This document shows positions 2,771-17,360 of a stretch of DNA of 22,772 nt, piece by piece. The notes under the pieces were generated by a model. It had not been told where the DNA came from. It was given only the letters and a program-made list of their open reading frames with translations, and made no database searches. This DNA comes from Mikrocytos mackini (taxonomy: Eukaryota; Endomyxa; Ascetosporea; Mikrocytida; Mikrocytiidae), in contig JASNJN010000466.1 of NCBI GenBank assembly GCA_030180075.1, positions 1 through 22,772 of the forward strand, read 5' to 3'. How positions within the stretch are numbered: position 1 is the first letter of the stretch; each line of letters opens with the position of its first letter. The position numbers and the translations under genes were made by a program.

Positions 2771-3939
2771 TAGGTATTTTGGTTGCACTAGTAATAACAA
2801 AGCACTCCGATTAACAAACGAAAGTACAGAAAATTCACATACCACACTTACTCTAGAACAAATGCGGGTTATTTCATATTTCAGCAACAAACTCTCAACA
2901 GGAGATATAGAAACACGATCAATAATTCTTGGAGCAGCAGGGACAGGAAAAACATATCTGATAAAAAAATATGATGGAAAAGTTTGGTTCATCAATATAT
3001 GTATGCGCAACTACAGGAAAAGCAGCTTCTAATATAGGTTACAATGTCCTGAAAATCCACACTTCATTTTCTGGCACGAGTGCCCACAGCCACAAAAATG
3101 TTTCACAATCAAAATTTAAAAATTTTTATTTATTTTCGAAAAAAAATAAAAATAACTAGAAAGTTAATTTTAGTATTTAGAATAAATTATTTTTTACCAA
3201 GATATTGTTATTATCGTTCCATCGATCAACATCAACATTATTTTGGAATTTCAATAAATTTGTGTTTTATCATAAACTATCCTGTCTATAATACATTTTT
3301 TCTATATATAATATCTCTCGCGTATTTATTTATAATTTAAAAATAATTTGTGGCGATTAATATGATTTTTGTGATTTTGAAAAAAAATGGTGGCTGTCGT
3401 CATTTTTTGTGGCTGTGAAGAATGGTGCCTCATTTTCTTTGCCAGTTGGAAGAAAATATGAGTTTGCACTAAATGATAATAAACTAAATGAATTAAGAGA
3501 AAAATTATCAATGGTCAAGCTTATTTTGATTGATGAATTTTCGATGCTTAGCCAATATAATTTATAATGGCTAGATGCTCGTCTAAAAGAAATTAAGAAT
3601 GTTCTGATAAACCATTCGGAGGATTTTCTATCATATTGTGCGGGGATATATTTCAACTACTACCAGTTATGGGGACTGCTCTATACTCATTTAATGACAA
3701 TTCAATCGAAAATATGTATGGGTATAACTTATATATGTTGTTCAAACAAGTTTTCATATTAAATAAAATAATAAGACAAGAAGAATCAACTAATAGCCAG
3801 TTTATAAACCTACTTGATAGATTGAGGATGGGGAAGCCTGTAAAGAACAATAGGGAATATTTACATAGCAATTTTATAACTATAGAGAATAGTAACATAA
3901 AAGAAAACATACTACATTTATTTTCTAGGAACGAACAAG
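2771..3939 (+). pseudogene. Broken Pif1-like helicase, probably from a Helitron
   Basis: Helicase motifs appear in order across several frames. Walker A GAAGTGKT is at 2931-2954, an ATTGKAAS segment follows the first frameshift, Walker B LILIDEF is at about 3520-3540, and GDIFQLLPV begins near 3643. A Pif1-type segment with RQEES and a DRLRMGKP stretch follows. Breaks: a frameshift near 2968 in an A run, a 357-bp insertion (3073-3429), an in-frame TAA (3565-3567), a frameshift near 3609, and loss of the C-terminus at the foldback element from 3940. The frame is open back to 2771 and no convincing start codon is visible. Pif1-like helicases unwind DNA 5' to 3'; in Helitrons the domain is fused to a Rep nuclease, not seen here. 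The assignment to Helitron rather than host PIF1 is inferred from the TE-only context. Confidence 0.85.
3073..3429. mobile_element. 357-bp non-autonomous DNA transposon with 9-bp target duplication
   Basis: The 9-mer TCATTTTCT occurs at 3064-3072 and 3430-3438, directly flanking the segment. Its ends are imperfect inverted repeats: left GGCACGAGTGCCCACAGCCA, right read inward GGCACCATTCTTCACAGCCA, both followed by CAAAAA. The interior is AT-rich with no credible gene. Removing the element plus one 9-mer (366 bases, a multiple of three) makes the helicase read IHTSFSLPVG across the join. A 9-bp duplication fits MULE or Merlin elements, and a GG start fits Merlin; the superfamily is not settled. 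Confidence 0.88.
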
Positions 3940-3950
3940 GGCTCCACTTC

Positions 3951-4040
3951 ATTTTCCCCGTTTTTCTTGCATTCTCCCCGAATTTTTTTCATTTTCCCCG
4001 CAGTTTTTCATTTTCCCTTCGGTTATTCATTTTCCCCGTT
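3951..4040. repeat. Subterminal motif cluster of the foldback element (CATTTTCCCCG)
   Basis: About five copies of a motif close to CATTTTCCCCG, with variants CATTCTCCCCG and CATTTTCCCTTCGG, are spaced roughly 18-25 bases apart inside the left terminus. The mirror cluster lies at about 5497-5568. Such arrays at transposon ends commonly serve as transposase-binding sites; that function is inferred. Confidence 0.7.
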
Positions 4041-5084
4041 TTTTTAGAAATGGAAGTCTTAAAAATGATCAAAAAAATGCAGTTCAACAATTTAAAATTT
4101 AATGGGTCGGTTTAAAAATTTCTGTAAATTATTATCAGTAAAAAAATTTGAACTTGAATTTCAAAATTTCCACTGCTTTGTAAATTCGGTAAAAACTTGA
4201 TTTCCTATAAAGGTATAAAATTTTCAAATATAAACTACCTAATAAAAAAATTCTGAAAATCAAATTTTTTTGGTGATGAAAACAGCGTTTTTATGGTCTA
4301 ATTAAAATTTTTGAAAAAAAATATTTTGGATTTTTCCAAGGGGGTACATCAGGTAGTTTTCAAAAAAAGTCGGGCCATAAAAACTCAAAATTNTGCATGA
4401 AATTTTTTTTGAAATTTATTTAGCAAATGTATTTTTGAGAGATCTACAAATAGATACCTATAAAAATTTTCATGGATTTTCCAGTCGAGTTAATATCAAA
4501 AAAGTAAAAATTCGGGTTAAAATTCACCTTTATTGGGTCGTCCATATATCAAGTATTTTTTCGAATTTTTATCTCAAAATTGTTTTATCGTTAAGATTTC
4601 ACCCGTTAAAAGCTGTAAAAAAATTTTGAGAAAAAATTTTGTATAAAAATCATATATTTTTGTGCACGACTTTTGGACCAAAATCAAAATTTTTGGTTCA
4701 AAAAATTCGAAATTTTTTTTGATGGAAATCAATATTTAAACACTATAAATATCAGAATAACATGTTACCTGAACAATAAAATAACTTTTTATGATTTTTT
4801 TTGAAAATTTGATCAAAAAAAATTTCGAATTTTTTGAACCAAAAATTTTGATTTTGGTCCAAAAAGTCGTGCACAAAAATATATGATTTTTATACAAAAT
4901 TTTTTCTCAAATTTTTTTTACAGCTTTTAACGGGTGAAATCTTAACGATAAAACAATTTTGAAATAAAAATTCGAAAAAATACTTGATATATGGACGACC
5001 CAATAAAGGTGAATTTTAACCCGAATTTTTATTTTTTTGATATTAACTCGACTGGAAAATTCATGAAAATTTTTATAGGTATCT

Positions 5085-5215
5085 NTTTGTAGATCTCTCN
5101 AAAATACNTTNGNTANATAAATTTCAAAAAAAATTTCNNNNAAAATTNTGAGTTTTTATGGNCCNACNTTTTTTGAAAACTANCTGATGNACCCCCTTNG
5201 AAAAANNNAAAATTN
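5085..5215. other. Patch of unresolved bases (N) in the right palindrome arm
   Basis: Scattered N calls occur across this stretch, with single Ns at 4393 and 5329. Other Ns occur at 16505-16541 and 22009. The mirror positions in the left arm are nearly all called, so the Ns reflect sequencing or assembly trouble in a hairpin-forming region. A frame on the minus strand across this patch has no coding value. Confidence 0.9.
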
Positions 5216-5578
5216 TTTTTTTTCAAAAATTTTAATTAGACCATAAAAACGCTGTTTTCATCACCAAAAAAATTTGATTTTCAGAATTTTTTTATTAGGT
5301 AGTTTATATTTGAAAATTTTATACCTTTNTAGGAAATCAAGTTTTTACCGAATTTACAAAGCAGTGGAAATTTTGAAATTCAAGTTCAAAATTTTTTACT
5401 GATAATAATTTACAGAAATTTTTAAACTGACCCATTAAATTTTAAATTGTTGAACTGCATTTTTTTGATCATTTTTAAGACTTCCATTTCTAAAAAAACG
5501 GGGAAAATGAATAACCGAAGGGAAAATGAAAAAAATTCGGGGAGAATGCAAGAAAAACGGGGAAAATGAAGTGGAGCC

Positions 5579-6885: not shown

Positions 6886-8700
6886 CTATTTTGTATTGCT
6901 ATTCAAAAAGGAATAGGCCTTTAACTTTTCGTCCTTCAACTTAGCTTTTCGATTATTAATATAATAACCCAGTTTGCTGAAATGTGATTCTACTAGTGAA
7001 GTTGAACACATTACGTGGTCAATTTGCCGATGGATATCGTAAAGAACGGGTAATCTGTTTTTGTTTTTCTTCCAAAACAAATCCTCGTTTTCAATTATAT
7101 GTTGGCTTTCCTGATAACTATTGTCTCGTAATCGGCCAACTGGTTATTTAGTTCCTTGTTTGACCTTTTAGATGTTTTGAAAGATTTATAAGACTTATAG
7201 AACTTATTACTTTCAGAAATACTATCGTTTGCAGTTTTTTTTCATCTCGCTATCATTTTTGTAATTAGTAATCTCCTCATCAATGCAGTAAGTCCTTGTT
7301 TTGTTTTCAATTTCTTCAGTTAAAAGTTTATGCATATTGTTGTTCACTTCGTTCCCAAAATATTTTTCATGATTGCAGTATAAAGGATTGAGAAAATAAG
7401 CTTTGTAAATCAAGTATTCCTGCTTTTTGTATATTTTTATCTTTTCTTCCAATATATCGATGGCGAGTAATTTAATAGTCTTTATATCTTTGCTATCTCC
7501 GGCCAAAATGGTTAAATGTTTTTCCAGACTTACGACAAATGGAAAGACTTCTGAAAGATTGCTAACTTGCTTTTCCATGCATTTTGTCACAAAATTGAAT
7601 GGTGACAAGAAGTTTACCATTTCTTGTATAAGCTTCTTCGGAATCTTTTCAATACAGTTAAGATACCTTTTTTCTTTCATAAACTCCACAATCTTATCAT
7701 AATGTAACAGTATCTTTTCTAACAAACTAAATGTACTGTTCCATCTCGTAGTTTGAATAGAAGGCAATTTTATGCCCACAAAATTGTAGAAGTCGCTGTA
7801 TTTTGACCAATGGGAGATTTTCGTGCATGTTTTGATCATCTTTGTAATACGCTGATCACATTCAGAGAGTATATTGGACACTACCGTGTTTATACGATGA
7901 CACAAACAGACCAAACTCGAAGTATCCGATAAACAATTCAAGATATTAGTCCCGGCATCGGAAACTAGAGCTGTGCATGATTGCAAATCCAAACCAAATT
8001 CGCAACATGTATCTGTTATGGTTGTTTTCACATTTTCTTTTGTTGCTACTTGTATGTGTTCTGTTGCTAAATTGTGCACGACCATTTTCCCATCATCGCA
8101 TTTAAAAGATATGAAAATAGAGACATACTTGTGGCTTGTTGGTTTATGTGTCCAGATGTCTGTATATAGTGTGTATGAATGTAAATCTTTTATGCTGTTA
8201 ATGAAATCTGTTTTTCTCTCGTTGTAAATGTCTATTATTTTCCTAGAAAAGGTAGTTCGATGTAAAAGTTGTTCTGAAGAAAGCTTAACAACATTTCTAT
8301 GAAACAGAACAGAAAGAACGTTTAGGAATTTAATAAAATCCTGATTCTCAACCAATCTCAATGGAAGCCAACACTTTATAACAAAATCCAAGATAGCCTT
8401 ATTTATCGCATCTTTTAAGTTGGGATTCATTTAAACCGTTTCGAGATAGGGAATAACTGTAGATTCTTGCAAGTTTATGCACGAATGGATGAGTAGAGAT
8501 GATGTACCTGTAGACTTGCTGTTATATTTATAGCTTTTCCCACACGAATCACAGACAGCAACATCGAACTCTTTCACTCTCGAAAACTTCTCCCAGGCCT
8601 TTGAAGTTGAATTGGGCTTATATAGGCTTAGTTTTGACCTGTCACTTTGTTTCACATAGTCGCCTAAAGTAAAATTTTGTATTGGGAAATTTTCCATCAA
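6886..8700 (-). pseudogene. hAT-superfamily transposase, broken by one stop and two frameshifts
   Basis: hAT transposases cut and paste DNA through an RNase-H-like DDE domain split by a helical insertion. Here an 89-codon segment (8700-8434) holds a BED-like finger (C50, C53, H72, C74 after AWEKFSRV). A TAA (8431-8433) follows, and the next codon in the same frame is ATG, opening a 402-codon segment. That segment has D91 in YTDIWT, D158 in SDAGTN, the CLCHRIN box (175-181) and TRWNSTF (228-234). It is lost at a run of eight T near 7235. After a second shift near 7120 the C-terminal dimerisation domain resumes (6886-7080) with the SLVESHFSKLG signature. Total length, about 610 codons, is normal for hAT. 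The single stop is likely a nonsense change, since both sides share a frame and are needed for function. The BED part could instead be translated separately. Confidence 0.92.
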
Positions 8701-9241: not shown

Positions 9242-9589
9242 CTAATTAATTAATTCAGTACCACAACATACCCACGCTTCCATATTAACAATGTTCGAAC
9301 CCAAGTTATTTTCCACGCATTTAACATGGAAAGACTTCCCGCAATATGTGCATTGTTTGTGTGTTATATCTCCTGCCCCAGAATTTACTATCTCTAAAAA
9401 CACTCACTGCAATAAATCCCCAAATAAGTAGTTTTTTACGGCCTCTTTTGGCTGGTATATAGCTACGTAGCTCAGTCCTGGCTATGCTACATCCTGAGAA
9501 ATGTGTTTACTTTTCAAACTCCGTTGAGGAATAGACACTCTTGTTTTATCGGTGACCTTATAAGATTCTATTTTTTCTTCACTTATCAC

Positions 9590-11920
9590 TAGGGCACCCC
9601 AAATGCATAATTACAATAGTGATATATAATCTGTATTTGTTTATAATATAAAATATATGTGAATATTGTACCATATTGAACGCTTACTGGTAAGTTATAG
9701 ACGTCGTGTTTTGTCATGTTGCATAAAACGTCACTTTTTCGAAAAATAAATTTTAAATTTGCAAAATTTCAAAATTTTGACTCAACTAACTATGGCGGGA
9801 AGTTAAGCTCATTCTAAGACAACAAGAAACACGAAATAACACTACAAATGATTATTGTGCTTAAACATACAATACATTTCCCTATGAACGCTATCAGGTC
9901 TTACAAAAAGAATTACAATTTTGGCGATGGTATAAACTTTAGAAATGCACTGACTTGAACTGCGTATACTCAAAACCATTGACTGACAATGAAGAAGTAG
10001 GCTATGGTTTGCTAGATTAACGTTCAAATTAACACTAGAGCGCAGATTTCAATCATTAAGAACGGAAAGGCTACAAGACATTAAACTAACAATCAAATTA
10101 CTATGAAAGATTTATATATTTGAAATAGGCTAGTTCGATATTTAAAAAGGGATTAAAACACACTCAAATGATTTATAGAAAACAAGGACGTAAAGTATAA
10201 AGAGCGAAATAGAGATTTTTTGGTAGGTGGAGAATCAACACGAGGAAGAAACAAAACATTAATAACTTTTCAACAAATGATTGAAATTAGGTCATATTAT
10301 TCAACGACTTTAAAGAAATGAACAAGGGAAGTAAGGCACCAAGTAAGTAAATATAAATAATATTACATCGGAATATATAATATATATATGAAAGGGTCGG
10401 TTAAAGGTTTTTATACAAAAGTTTTAAACCAACTTATATTTTTAAATAAAGTTGTGGCATATTTGTTATAAGTTGCTAAATTAAATATGAATTTTTTGAG
10501 AATTAATTAAATATATTATATTATACTATATTGTTTCGCATACTTATTTATTTGTTTTTAAGTAAAGAATTAACCATAGGCACTGGTAATAAACAGCGAT
10601 TATCGTGTGGCATATAATCCATAAGTAAATAGAAACTAATAATATGCGAAATCTAAGTTCTATCTTCCTTTTAGTTTCATGCTTTTTAAGTTTGCCTTCA
10701 TGATTTCGCCCTATCTCTATTTCCACACATACCTTCCTGGCCCAAGCCAATGCTTGATTATCGTGTTAAATACTGTACATGAAATATCTGTTTATTCCCT
10801 GGGTTCTTCTACAGAAAATATGAACATAGAGGTAAGTTTTCTCATTATTTAAATTACAATGTCCCTAGACTACTTCCACTTATCAAACAACTCACATGTT
10901 TATAGTGACTGAGTGCTTCAAGTATTTACGATTCTAGAAGTTGATTAACAGGTTCTGGTTACTATAGAGTCGCGGGAGATTTTTACGAAAGTTGTTTGTT
11001 CTTTTGTAACAGTCAATGGGAGGAGAAATAGACATGTTGTCAGGCCGAGAAAGATTACAAGTTTGTAAGAATGTGCAACCAAGAGAAGTGCATCAATGAA
11101 TTTTTTATACTGTGGATTTCCACAAAGAAAAGCGAGTAATTTAGAGATACATTAGATGGTTGGTCTTCTGAAAACTCCTCATGTTGGTTTGCACAAAGCA
11201 AATTCGGTTGTGGTATAAGTCTATGGCACGAATAGTTAAAGTTGGATGATGTTTTTGCCATGTAGAACACATGCTTCGGTTGATACATAATCTGATATTT
11301 CTTATTCTATCTATACCCTGACAACGCTCTGTAAGATGGCTAATAGAATCTGGGTTTATATGTAGAAGGAAAGTCATTTTGTCTAGAATTTATCTTTTGT
11401 TTTTCATTTTTATCTTATATTTTTTATTTCCACCGTTAGTTAAATGTTTAAAGCATGTTTTCGACAATATAAGAAACAAAAACACTAGAATACCCTTGAA
11501 TGAATAATCTCGGATGGTATTTAATAATTTGTTATAATTTTGTATGAGTAAAGGAGTTACGTATATTCCCATGGTTTAATATCGATTACAAGCCATTATT
11601 TTGTATTGAATAAATGATGGTAATGTTTTCACGCGTTCAAAATGCATTAATGAAGTCATTTCGCCGATTTTCCCAAAATATATAATAGAATAAATTAAAA
11701 TTAAAACTCAATAATTTTAATTAAAAAACACATAAAATTGTTGGAGTTTATAATAATTTGTAGATATCTTAAAAAAAACAGTGTAAAAATATGAATTTGT
11801 TAAAATATTCGAATCCCAACAACAATTTACGAGCCATTTTTAAATGCATAAAACGTCATAAAATGGCAAAATTTAAATGCATAAATTGCATTTTATTATG
11901 CAAAAAAGTGGGGTGCCCTA
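9590..11920. mobile_element. 2331-bp non-autonomous hAT-like element inside the MULE gene
   Basis: CTTATCAC occurs at 9582-9589 and 11921-11928, directly flanking the segment. The ends are perfect 12-bp inverted repeats, TAGGGCACCCCA. Both subterminal zones share GCATAAAACGTCA-like and AAATGCATAA words (for example near 9722 and 11846). The 8-bp duplication and the TAGGG start (YARNG type) fit hAT. The MULE protein resumes across it: ...ILSVIS on one side and EEKIESYK on the other. Several frames of 60-80 codons exist inside, mostly on the minus strand, but none shows a known domain or a consistent coding pattern. It is much longer than an ordinary MITE, so it may carry captured or decayed sequence. 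Confidence 0.9.
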
Positions 11921-12090
11921 CTTATCACCGATAATATCCTATCTTTTAGAGCCTCAATGTCCTTGTATATATATTTCAGTTTGTTTGTATTGGATTCTTC
12001 GATTTGGTCGGAAAGAGAACTTAGAGTTTTTTTAATATTACCAATAGCTACAGTCGGAGGGTATTCTGTAGCTTTTAATCGTACCGAAAT

Positions 12091-12427
12091 TAGATATTGG
12101 ACACTTGAAAAATGTACGAATATTCGAAGCACGATTTTTGAAGGAGACGAATATTCGAAGAAACTTCGGAATTTTGAAATGTCTTAATATACTGAAAATT
12201 TCAAAATAAATTTATTTTTAATATCGATTTATTCATTCTGGTTTTAAAGTCTAAATTTTGCATAATTTTTTCAAATAAAAAAATCGACGAATATTCGAAT
12301 ATTTTTTGAAATTTTCGCAAAATTTGAAATTATTTTCAAAAAATCTTCGGAAAACGAATACCAGAAATCCGATTTTTGACGAATATTCGAAGTTTTCCAA
12401 AACGAATATTCGTTTGTCCAATCTCTA
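12091..12427. mobile_element. 337-bp hAT-like MITE inside the MULE gene
   Basis: ACCGAAAT flanks it at 12083-12090 and 12428-12435. Termini read inward are TAGATATTGGACA and TAGAGATTGGACA (12 of 13 identical). The palindrome CGAATATTCG occurs about five times, near both ends. Element plus duplication is 345 bases, a multiple of three, so a chance open frame from the MULE runs straight through the element. Removing it joins EKAISV to RLKATEY. There is no coding capacity of its own; it must have been moved by a hAT transposase encoded elsewhere. Confidence 0.93.
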
Positions 12428-13617
12428 ACCGAAATAGCTTTCTCACCATATACATTCTTACATTTGTCTATTTTGCCGTGCAAAGGTTCCGTTCCCCCAA
12501 TCCTTTTGTATTGATTGATTTTAATTGCGTGAAATCTTGAAACCAAATGAATATGACAACAAAGCTCTTTCTTATATAGATTCTGACGGCATGTACAGGT
12601 GTAGTTGTGATGGCAAATGCAACATTTCATACACAAAGGTAAACACCTATGGGAGCAATCTGATGTCACTAGTTTCACTGTATAACGCCCATATTTGAAT
12701 GTATTATCTAACAGCATTTCTACCTTATGTGTATCCATGTCTTCACTCGTTGTATGGTGTTTACGTGCAATTTTATAACGATAGTTATTAAATCGTCCCA
12801 ATTGAACATTTTTCCCAGTGTCTACTTCTAGTTGTGTAACATTTTCAAGAATCTTTTCCGTTAGCTGTATCAAGGAACTTCTACAGTTCCATTTTAAGTT
12901 CACGCGTTTGAAAGACATAAACCATGATTTGGCGAAGTTATTAGTATTGGCATTGGCTTCTTTTCTGTAACACATTCCCCATTTTTTTGTATTTTTAGTA
13001 TAATTCTTTTCGAAATATGAATAGAAAGGGACACTTATTTCTTTAGCCGTGTCTAGAAATGTACTTAAGAATGTTTTAAAATCGTTCTCTTCGGCTATAT
13101 TTTCGAGGTTTCTAAACATATTGATTATTTTCTGTCTATCGGTTTTAGTTTTGATATAAGCCTCTATTTTTTTAATGACGGCTTTTTGAAATGAAAATAA
13201 CAAAACAAGTATTCGCCTGCGCCATTAAAAACTCTGTTCCATGAATTGAAGAATCCATGATAGAGATCCGACATAAAATGCTTAGGTCTCTTATATCCTT
13301 CAACCAAGCATTTAAATTTACGAAAACAGCTTTCCAACACTGTTTCCTTTTCTGTGTTGGTTATCATGAATAAGAATGGAACGGCCGTCTGGTGGTCGTT
13401 TATCACGAATCCTACAGTTAATAAGAATTTAAATCATTAGTAGAAAACGTTGTGTCGAAATGTATGATATTAGACGAGTACTTTAGGAATGAATTTATCA
13501 TAAAGTTTGATGCAAAGGCTTCAAGAAATACATCCTTTCTCAATAATATATCGTCACTTTTCATAAGGAAATTATGTGATAATACGCTGATAATCTCTTT
13601 TGTATTGGCTTTGTAGT

Positions 13618-14014
13618 TAGAGTTTCCCCTCGATTCGGCTCGAGGCGAGTACTCGCTCCGAGTTGAGACAAAATTCAACTCGAACTCGACTCGAATTAGA
13701 GGTCGAGCTAAGTATGCAAAATATTTTATAGAAACTTGTAGATTTACTACCAAAATATAGCAACTGGTTACAACAAAATTTTGGTTAAAACAATAAAAAG
13801 CAGCAAAATTGTAATTTTGAATGATATTTTAGTAAAATTTCATATTTTTGGGATTTTTCGAATTTGCATTTTGACGGTTGTTTTAGTTATTATCCTATTT
13901 TCTTTATTTTTACAATTTTATTTGGAAAATAACTCGCTCGAAATACTCGACTCGGTATAAAATCACAGACTCAAAACTCGAGTAATTTAACAACTCGGAA
14001 CTCGTAGAACTATA
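13618..14014. mobile_element. 397-bp hAT-like MITE with ACTCG/CGAGT-rich ends inside the MULE gene
   Basis: TTTGTAGT flanks it at 13610-13617 and 14015-14022. The termini, TAGAGTTT and TATAGTTC read inward, match imperfectly. Both ends are dense in ACTCG and its complement CGAGT: about ten copies in 13630-13710 and about eight in 13930-14006, around an AT-rich core. Element plus duplication is 405 bases, a multiple of three. Removing it joins FIDYK to ANTKEIISVL in the MULE. The weaker terminal match suggests an older insertion or looser ends; the duplication itself is perfect. Confidence 0.88.
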
Positions 14015-14180
14015 TTTGTAGTCTATAAATATTTTGAAATCTTCCAAATCTCCAGAACTTGAAGTTCCGAACTGGTTATTTATTCGAAATTTCAAAACAT
14101 GCAACCAATTTTTACTTATAGTATGGCTCTTCTGTAAATTATTGAGATCTGTTTCTCTGGTTATATCGGCTGGAATCTTG

Positions 14181-14270
14181 TTTCCCACACTTTCTTCCAT
14201 TTCCCACACTTTCTTCCAATTCCCACACTATCTTCCAATTCCCACACTATCTTCCATATCCCACGATCGT
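14181..14270 (+). repeat. Left subterminal tandem array (about 18-19-bp unit, five copies)
   Basis: Units close to TTCCCACACTTTCTTCCAT repeat with small changes (CTTTC or CTATC, ending AT or AAT). The inverted counterpart is at 14867-14951, so the array is a feature of the element ends. Confidence 0.9.
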
Positions 14271-14866
14271 CCATTTTAGCATGATTGCTGGCGGTTTTAT
14301 GGTGTTTCACACATCCTAACCGATGTATGACGATATTTCCCAGAGACTGAGACTATTTTGATCTGTTAATACGAAAATCCACACTATATTCTTGGATATT
14401 ACGAGCAATTTTCCAATTTTAAAAATTTTTAAATTTCAGGAATTATATGCATATTATTGTGTAAAATCAACTTCCCAGCTTTCATAACCTAATATATTTG
14501 TAAAAATTTTCAAAAATTATCTTGAAAATTTAATATAATTTGTTCCCACGTGCCATATTTAGTGATAAAAATCAACTTAAAAGTCATTGTAATGTGCGTA
14601 CGTAGTCGGTTATTCAACCATGTAAATATGCTTATATTTATTCATTAAACAGATAATATGCAATAATTGACCAATATTCAAAGTATTTTGTTGTTCGTAA
14701 GACTCGGAAAAAAAACCAAAAAACCATTTTTTAATTTTGCAAAAACTATACTAGAGTACTCACTGAAAATGTTAAATATGCACAATATGGGGCTAATGTG
14801 AGTACGTAGCCATGGGATGGCATTATTTTCCGTATTTCTGGTAAAAATCATGATAAAATTGATCTG

Positions 14867-14951
14867 AGTGTGGGGTATGGAAGAAAGTGTGGGAATCGGA
14901 AGAAAGTGTGGGAAATGGAAGAAAGTGTGGGAAATGGAAGAAAATGTGGGG
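14867..14951 (-). repeat. Right subterminal tandem array, inverted copy
   Basis: About five units of ATGGAAGAAAGTGTGGGAA, the reverse complement of the left array. An open frame of the MULE reads through it and appends a low-complexity tail, an artefact of the insertion. Confidence 0.9.
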
Positions 14952-15595
14952 TGACGATTTATAGCCGGTTATATTTGTATAGATAGTGTGTATTGGAACT
15001 CCTTCTCGAATCCGTTTTTTAATATTTTGTATGAATGTGCTTGGGATCTTTAATTTGGCCAGATTTTGTTCGTGGTTGTGTTTGAATGTGTATTGGACTT
15101 TATAGTAGTACTCAGCCAGTCTATTGATTTTAATAATCACAGGACACTTAACTAACAGGCTCCTATGGTCATTACATTTATATACGGATACTTTACGAAT
15201 TTCATCGAGCTGTTTAGAATATTGCAAAGTTAGTGTCTGGTTATTTGTTCTCAAGTTAGTATTCAAAAATCGATTCAGTACGTAATCCGAATGAAAATAT
15301 GTTGTTGATAATGGGGACTTAGGTTTGATGGGAATAGATGTATTTGCTTCATTTTTAATCAATACTTTATGTAATTCGCCTTTAAAATGTTTTCGTGTAG
15401 TTCTTAAGGTTTGTTATAGGAATTTGCCGACGTGATTAAGTATTTGGCACGTATCAAATAAAAATTTTCTTGGACAGGTGTTAAGGTTGAAATGAAGTGT
15501 ATTCAAGCGGATCTCGGTCACAAATAGATTCTTTTCCGGCGGGATTGGTTGGGCAAGTTTGTTGGATCTTTTTTCTGTTCAAGGAGGTCCTCCAT

Positions 15596-16005
15596 AAGAT
15601 TGCTGGAATTTAAATTTTGAAAAAGTATTAGGCATTTATATACCAACCAGCAGCTTTGACCACTACAAAAAACATACAACGCGTTTATAACAACATCAAA
15701 ATCTATATGTCGTGTTGAAATAATGTTTAGAATAATAAACTTTGTATTTCACTAAAACCAACACCAAGTGTTTAAAAGCTAAACAAATGACATATTGTTA
15801 GACATCTTTTCTATAATACAATATATATACAATAATTTGAATTAAAAATCATAAACAAAAAAATAAAAATCTTGGATTTGTAATTTAATCATAAAGTTAT
15901 TCTGAATAAAATCAGTAGAGCTGATGTGTGTGTTGCTTTAAATGAATGTACATATATGTGTATCTTGTAAATCTGGGCAAGAAATAAGCGAGAAAATGAA
16001 CTTGA
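15596..16005. other. AT-rich spacer between the two head-to-head MULE pseudogenes
   Basis: No gene is recognised. The interval lies upstream of the minus-strand MULE start (15595) and upstream of the plus-strand MULE fragment, and would contain 5' flanks and terminal repeats if any survive. A GTTAGAC word near 15800 has an inverted partner at 8972. Confidence 0.35.
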
Positions 16006-16036: not shown

Positions 16037-16605
16037 CCCAATGACTGCGGCATGGTCAGTATACTGACTATTGTCATTTCGCTTGATTGCGGTATGGTCA
16101 GCATATTGACCACAATGACATCCGTTTGACTGCGACATGGTCAGTATTCTGACCATACCTGAATTATAAATTTTTAATTATTTTCTGTGCACAATATAAT
16201 TTTATTTTATTTTATTACAATATTCTAAAAAGGTAATTTTAGACATGTTATATTAAATTGAAATGGTTTGGTGTTGTGCATCGGAAATAAATTTTTAAAA
16301 AATTTTAAATGTCTAAAGAAATTCCTATCTACATAACTTCGACCATTATTATTCAAAATCGATCCATTAATTATTCGTTTGTTTAAATATATCACTGTAA
16401 ACGGAAAATTGTATAATAACAACATTAATACCGAATTTTATAACAAATTAAATATTTTCCAGTTTTAAATCAAAACAATAAAAATTTACCAAGCGTCAAT
16501 AACANTTTCTATATAAATTATATATATNTNTNTATTATAANTAAAAAACAGATATCCATGGTAGAATGTGATATGAATACCTAGATTCGCGACGCAGTCA
16601 ATGGG
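16037..16605. mobile_element. 569-bp piggyBac-like MITE at a TTAA site
   Basis: TTAA flanks it at 16033-16036 and 16606-16609. The ends read inward are CCCAATGACTGCG and CCCATTGACTGCG, 12 of 13 identical. TTAA duplications with CCC-starting termini are the hallmark of piggyBac elements, which excise precisely. Removing element plus one TTAA joins the MULE fragment in frame (GTE-LKNTAF). The left side carries three palindromic subterminal units; the core is AT-rich with some Ns. No transposase is encoded. Confidence 0.88.
16041..16154 (+). repeat. Three palindrome-bearing subterminal units in the piggyBac-like element
   Basis: Units begin at about 16042, 16085 and 16127. Each reads TGACTGCGGCATGGTCAG or close to it, followed by a short AT centre and CTGACC. 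Each contains a GGTCAG...CTGACC inverted repeat. A single partial unit is at the right end, so the element is asymmetric. Confidence 0.8.
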
Positions 16606-17360
16606 TTAAAGAATACTGCTTTTAGAGATTTGAATATGATGCAACGAGCTTTCATTAAATCGCTATTTATCAAATCATATGAAGCATTTAAGAGGAAATA
16701 CAGTGAATGCGCAGGTTTTGACGAATTCATAAGATATTTCGACTCAAACTACATTGAAAAAGATATAAATTTTATGAAGGGTCATATCTGAACATCCCTA
16801 AGACGAATAACGCGTTGGAAGGATTTAATCGCGTTATAAAGGCTGTTCATTTCAATTATACAAAGAATTCTATGCAAAACTTAATTTTGAAATTGGGACG
16901 TGTTTTATGTCTAAAAGAGGAACAACTGTTGGATTTGAATTTTACTTTAGAAGAGAGAATGGTTTACAAAAAGAAATATAACTTATGTTTCAACAGTCAC
17001 TTGTTAGGGAATCAACAAACCATTTTTTACTACTTAGTCTATGAAGGGAATGAAGATGAGTTGGAAGTTTCCTGTGAGAGAATAAAAGAAATACTTTTCG
17101 GAAATGATGCCTTTTATAACTTTAGAGAATATATCTGTCTGTTGAAGAAAGCATTTGTCATTTATGATGCATCCAGTCTTGGACGTTGGGAGAGTTTTTA
17201 TTGTAGCTGCCGAACTTACAAAATAACGAGGCGTTGTGACCACATTCAATATATAGCCGTCTCTATTCTGAAATTATCTGATCTTCGATTTGACTTAACA
17301 AAAAACACCAATAAAAGGAGGAGTATCATTCCGGGGAACTCATTGTTAAGGGACAATTAA

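Follow-up and report, generated by a model that had tools for sequence, protein, structure and literature searches.

Non-autonomous elements of the hAT type are characterized by 8-bp target duplications and by short terminal repeats beginning with TAG or TAT. Mutator/MULE elements are accompanied by duplications of 8-11 bp, and a duplication of 9 bp is compatible with non-autonomous elements of either Mutator/MULE or Merlin type. Nested transposon insertions have been documented in coding MULEs of maize and rice, according to the portion of that work considered here (Zhao and Jiang, 2014; PMC3903597). In the main text of a survey of microsporidian transposons (PMC4202319), the portion consulted, the words "MULE" and "Mutator" are absent.

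We describe here a MULE transposase gene of Mikrocytos mackini parted by four inserts, to which we will refer as A, B, C and D. It lies in a stretch of 22,772 nucleotides (the window), corresponding to contig C367 of a 13.6-Mb assembly of 733 contigs. With high confidence, one MULE gene received insertions of four non-coding elements, each from a different family, predicted to move by cut-and-paste and bordered by a target duplication of its own. Those of C and D probably followed the split of the gene into two copies, and those of A and B maybe preceded it. The nested insertions are real, well delimited and ordinary in kind.

The MULE gene and its surroundings

The gene occupies positions 9242-15595 of the minus strand and consists of five pieces (Table 1). 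The pieces were mapped unjoined by tblastn, using as query an uninterrupted 804-aa open reading frame (ORF) of contig C70; four of the five are collinear with this ORF on the minus strand, with identities of 29-48%, piece by piece. The piece between A and B (11929-12081) is without a tblastn match of its own to C70. The C70 ORF matches PF10551 above the Pfam cut-off (E = 1.3e-11, 45.3 bits), and an 80-aa fragment of the window gene (13164-13406) matches the same family one bit below it (E = 8.1e-6, 26.6 bits); the window gene is therefore placed in PF10551 through a collinear relative above the cut-off, together with its own fragment just below. A search of a large protein collection, in which 7982 candidates were scored, gave no homologue of the C70 protein at E <= 0.001, and the inserts could consequently not be dated through relatives from outside. 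In-frame stops are present in the window gene at 15579-15581, 15414-15416, 9482-9484 and 9404-9406; compared with a second copy on contig C412, described below, it also has one-base gaps near 13182 and 13435.

Table 1. Positions in the window of the MULE gene pieces, the inserts, the duplication of D and the tblastn matches to the C70 ORF.
Feature	Positions	Strand	Details
MULE piece 1 (N-terminal), including one D duplication	14967..15595	-	tblastn; stops 15414-15416, 15579-15581
MULE piece 2, between C and D	14015..14167	-	C70 aa 248-285
MULE piece 3, transposase core	12428..13617	-	PF10551; SWIM-like cysteines by eye
MULE piece 4, between A and B	11921..12090	-	open in expected frame
MULE piece 5 (C-terminal)	9242..9589	-	C70 aa 740-790; PHD-like finger by eye; ends TAG 9242-9244
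Insert A	9590..11920	.	2331 bp; terminal repeat TAGGGCACCCC
Insert B	12091..12427	.	337 bp; ends TAGATATTGGACA/TAGAGATTGGACA
Insert C	13618..14014	.	397 bp; ends TAGAGTTTC/TATAGTTC
Insert D	14168..14966	.	799 bp; ends GGCTGGAATC/GGCTATAAATC
D left 9-bp duplication GGTTATATC	14159..14167	.	right copy 14967-14975 GGTTATATT
C70 aa 40-243	15575-14970	-	tblastn
C70 aa 248-285	14149-14036	-	tblastn
C70 aa 289-350	13621-13436	-	tblastn
C70 aa 352-453	13433-13128	-	tblastn
C70 aa 431-650	13197-12538	-	tblastn
C70 aa 740-790	9589-9434	-	tblastn
C70 aa 777-804	9479-9396	-	tblastn

Several further features were observed in or around the gene. A PHD-like spacing of cysteines and histidines was recognised by eye at the C-termini of two MULEs, those of the window (9242-9400) and of contig C401. 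On the plus strand, 16815-17360 displays a SWIM-like cysteine pattern, also by eye, and is a possible MULE remnant, with no Pfam match and no tblastn match to two MULE proteins; nearby, at 16042-16156, a 30-bp motif (family D4) is repeated three times at a spacing of 42-43 bp. On the other side of the gene, a transposase-like frame in two pieces spans 7222-8700, with a weak BED zinc finger match below the cut-off and no Pfam hAT domain. At 3636-5578, part of a frame resembling a PIF1 helicase (E = 0.002, below the Pfam cut-off) is followed by a 1.6-kb inverted repeat; the arms of the repeat (approximately 3940-4720 and 4816-5578) are 89-96% complementary, and many N bases occur at 5085-5329. 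Furthermore, an open frame of 645 aa with a reverse transcriptase domain lies at 39-1976, with one relative at 48% identity.

The inserts, their duplications and their families

Counted together with one duplication each, the inserts amount to 2339 (A), 345 (B), 405 (C) and 808 bp (D), and subtracting these 3897 bp from the 6354 bp of the locus leaves 2457 bp, i.e., 819 codons. The frame continues across all four inserts, and the lengths agree with the tblastn frames. Perfect 8-bp duplications border A (CTTATCAC, 9582-9589/11921-11928), B (ACCGAAAT, 12083-12090/12428-12435) and C (TTTGTAGT, 13610-13617/14015-14022). The duplications of D match at eight of nine positions; the right one is likely a changed copy, as the empty site for D in C412 carries the left version, GGTTATATC. 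Terminal repeats are clear in A and B and weak in C, and inverted arrays of 19-bp repeats lie inside both ends of D. The first-pass annotation had proposed an 819-codon gene with a protein frame continuous across the joins, at least three terminal types, and perfect 8-bp duplications throughout: gene length and frame are borne out, the terminal types number four, and the duplications are as proposed for A, B and C, D instead belonging to a 9-bp family and having one mismatch.

All four inserts belong to repeat families of the same genome. For each of them, the best 40 candidates were scored, out of 180 (B), 86 (C), 142 (D) and 48 (A), the resulting matches including the window's own copy and partial ones. 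Many near-full-length matches are found among the 40 scored for B, for C and for D, the family of D occupying at least 39 other places, some of them partial. For A, the 40 of 48 scored are partial matches with the exception of C412, mainly of the ends or of internal pieces, at 70-92% identity; contig C449 carries a near-identical half copy, which over 10714-11920 differs at 3 bases and has one N besides. Among the full-length copies at the fetched loci, with the window and C412 left out, perfect duplications flank 13 of 21 for B and 6 of 12 for C. The two relatives of A that were read at both ends, on C41 and C540, also have perfect 8-bp duplications. As for D, 17 other copies with both ends recognised at the fetched loci comprise 7 with perfect 9-bp duplications, none with 8 bp only, and 10 with unmatched flanks. 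Given these 10, not every repeat junction of this assembly can be relied upon.

The inserts look young, to judge from the changes private to the window copies: 2 of 337 positions in B (C412 left out), 4 of 397 in C and 1 of 798 in D, in alignments of 23, 21 and 22 sequences, respectively, window included; such changes are a rough guide only and understate age. Private changes were used for B, C and D after rejecting an age taken from the identity to the nearest relative, since the source copy is possibly unsampled. No MULE remnants were detected by tblastn within A, B, C or D, using two MULE proteins at E <= 0.5. Two candidate partners of A were also discarded. A longer relative (3.4 kb) on C157 was considered as an autonomous partner, and its frames resemble only pieces of reverse transcriptase by eye, with no transposase seen; on C401, approximately 204 bp of the left end of A lie at the start of a MULE frame, with no right end found by pattern up to 7400.

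Regarding the mechanism, the anatomy of the elements suggests that transposases supplied from elsewhere in the genome would have acted on the terminal inverted repeats of A-D. Integration would have taken place at a staggered cut of 8 bp for A, B and C and of 9 bp for D, the duplications would have been made by gap repair, and the insertion sites may have been tolerated because the MULE gene was presumably useless to the host. Both the transposases and the order of arrival are what we infer. The four inserts lie side by side, none within another, so that nesting does not reveal which came first.

Clusters of B and C within approximately 2 kb are also found elsewhere, on C455 (B, B, C) and C506 (B, C, B, C) (loci L015, L018, L042 and L041). 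No MULE was detected in the stretches fetched at these clusters with two MULE queries, and reverse transcriptase matches occur on C455. As such clusters recur, the presence of four inserts in one gene is not claimed to be beyond chance.

Empty sites in a second copy

Contig C412 and the window are 98.9% identical over window positions 13617 to 9576, with A and B in place. C and D are missing from it, and their target sites are single, unduplicated and without footprint; the site for C, TTTGTAGT, is present in both arms of a foldback and the site for D in one arm, and the sequence continues in the MULE frame across the C site. Most likely, C and D are later, separate arrivals that were never present in the C412 copy, a traceless loss being less likely. 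For A and B, this MULE yielded no native empty site; that they are insertions too is suggested by their duplications, by related copies and by the collinearity of the gene with a relative 29-48% identical. A further partial copy on C267 matches 15321-15761 at 99.3%, followed by a small rearranged stretch up to the contig end.

The possibility that A and B were in the MULE before the copies split, and that C and D followed, is a refinement compatible with four insertions into one gene, and we consider it about evenly balanced. The right end of A, the MULE stretch between A and B, and B itself occupy the same places in C412 and in the window. Nevertheless, the divergence along the shared stretch is uneven. 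The part of A up to 11133 differs by 12 substitutions and by one gap of 5 bp. The following 1,546 bp (11134-12679), which take in the right part of A, B and the MULE sequence on either side of B, have 1 substitution vs. 22 in the next 930 bp of the MULE (12680-13609); p = 1.6e-6 against an even spread, for tract ends picked after inspection of the data. Thus, the two parts of C412 have different histories, and A and B could have been brought next to an older, different part by gene conversion, by allele exchange or by mixing during assembly. In addition, synonymous changes make up 10 of the 22 core substitutions vs. an expectation of 26.5% that takes the observed share of transitions into account (one-sided p = 0.04; two-sided p = 0.004 under a uniform model), as if the gene had remained coding while much of this divergence accumulated. 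Some of the differences between window and C412 thus seem to have arisen in a coding gene, a hint that also speaks against an arrival of A and B ahead of all the divergence.

The same data bear on whether the MULE was already non-coding before all four arrivals, as the first-pass annotation had thought probable; this may be so but is not established. The core covered by both window and C412 has no disabling change in common: both one-base gaps are private to the window, and the sole core stop of C412 is private to C412, beside the mild synonymous excess. On the other hand, the two N-terminal stops of the window are identical in C267, and some of the decay may thus be older than the split between window and C267.

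To the left of A, the flank on C412 is not this MULE and ends in GTAATCAT, and on C449 the right end of A is followed by the same GTAATCAT, an 8-base match that is weak alone, similar duplications occurring at several copies of A (loci compared: L010/L002, C412:279-6136; L071, C449:11600-13424). By eye, the left flank on C412 (with one stop) and the right flank on C449, read in frame, resemble the left and right parts of a different MULE gene. Two MULE genes or more thus likely contain A, with C412 connecting them via recombination or misassembly. Misassembly is the likelier source of this link, because C412 folds back near its contig end and many copies of D have unmatched flanks; C412 itself may be partly misassembled. 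It is conceivable, although improbable, that this MULE locus and a second MULE gene, each with a near-identical copy of A, recombined with one another through A in vivo, C412 joining the left side of the second to the right side of the first; nests in dead MULEs would then act as recombination hubs reshuffling the genome, and C and D would still segregate as present/absent alleles.

We regard as very unlikely that the four-insert arrangement itself, whole or in part, is a misassembly joining repeats of different loci. Repeat-bordered joins with unmatched flanks are indeed frequent, as seen for other D copies, and on C412 this MULE is linked to the left flank of a different A insertion; however, matching duplications around A, B and C, an eight-of-nine match at D and a MULE frame running across all four inserts are not expected from random misjoins. 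There is similarly little to recommend excision as the reason for the empty C and D sites, since cut-and-paste elements do excise but their transposases usually leave a footprint, and the sites in C412 are single copies without one, that of C in two arms.

Four insertions into one pre-existing MULE gene remain the preferred reading. The separate insertions put forward by the first-pass annotation are supported, with C412 providing native empty sites in the case of C and D. Its proviso, that the same segments in other copies of the MULE would point to a single arrival or to parts of the MULE, finds a divided answer, with A and B at the same places in C412 and C and D absent from it. The "unusually clean layered record" that had been claimed is not upheld: the elements are not inside one another, the D duplication is imperfect, and C412 is a mosaic.

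Comparison with known elements

In one small eukaryotic genome, four element families look to have been active recently, two of the insertions having native empty sites, and C and D can serve as presence/absence markers for comparing isolates. The locus also advises caution: matched duplications in one contig do not amount to a time series; the other copy is mosaic, and the reliability of many repeat joins in this assembly is doubtful.

With their 8-bp duplications and short terminal repeats beginning with TAG or TAT, A, B and C are candidate non-autonomous hAT elements; the duplication length is found in the window, in other copies of B and C, and in the A relatives on C41 and C540. D does not have the 8-bp duplications of hAT; those of 9 bp make it a putative non-autonomous element of Mutator/MULE or Merlin type. 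No transposase was linked to any of the four families. As in maize and rice MULEs (PMC3903597, in the portion considered), transposons lie inside MULE transposase genes. The maize nested inserts treated in that portion are mostly LTR retrotransposons (PMC3903597), whereas in the small eukaryotic genome described here all four inserts are non-coding and bear terminal repeats.
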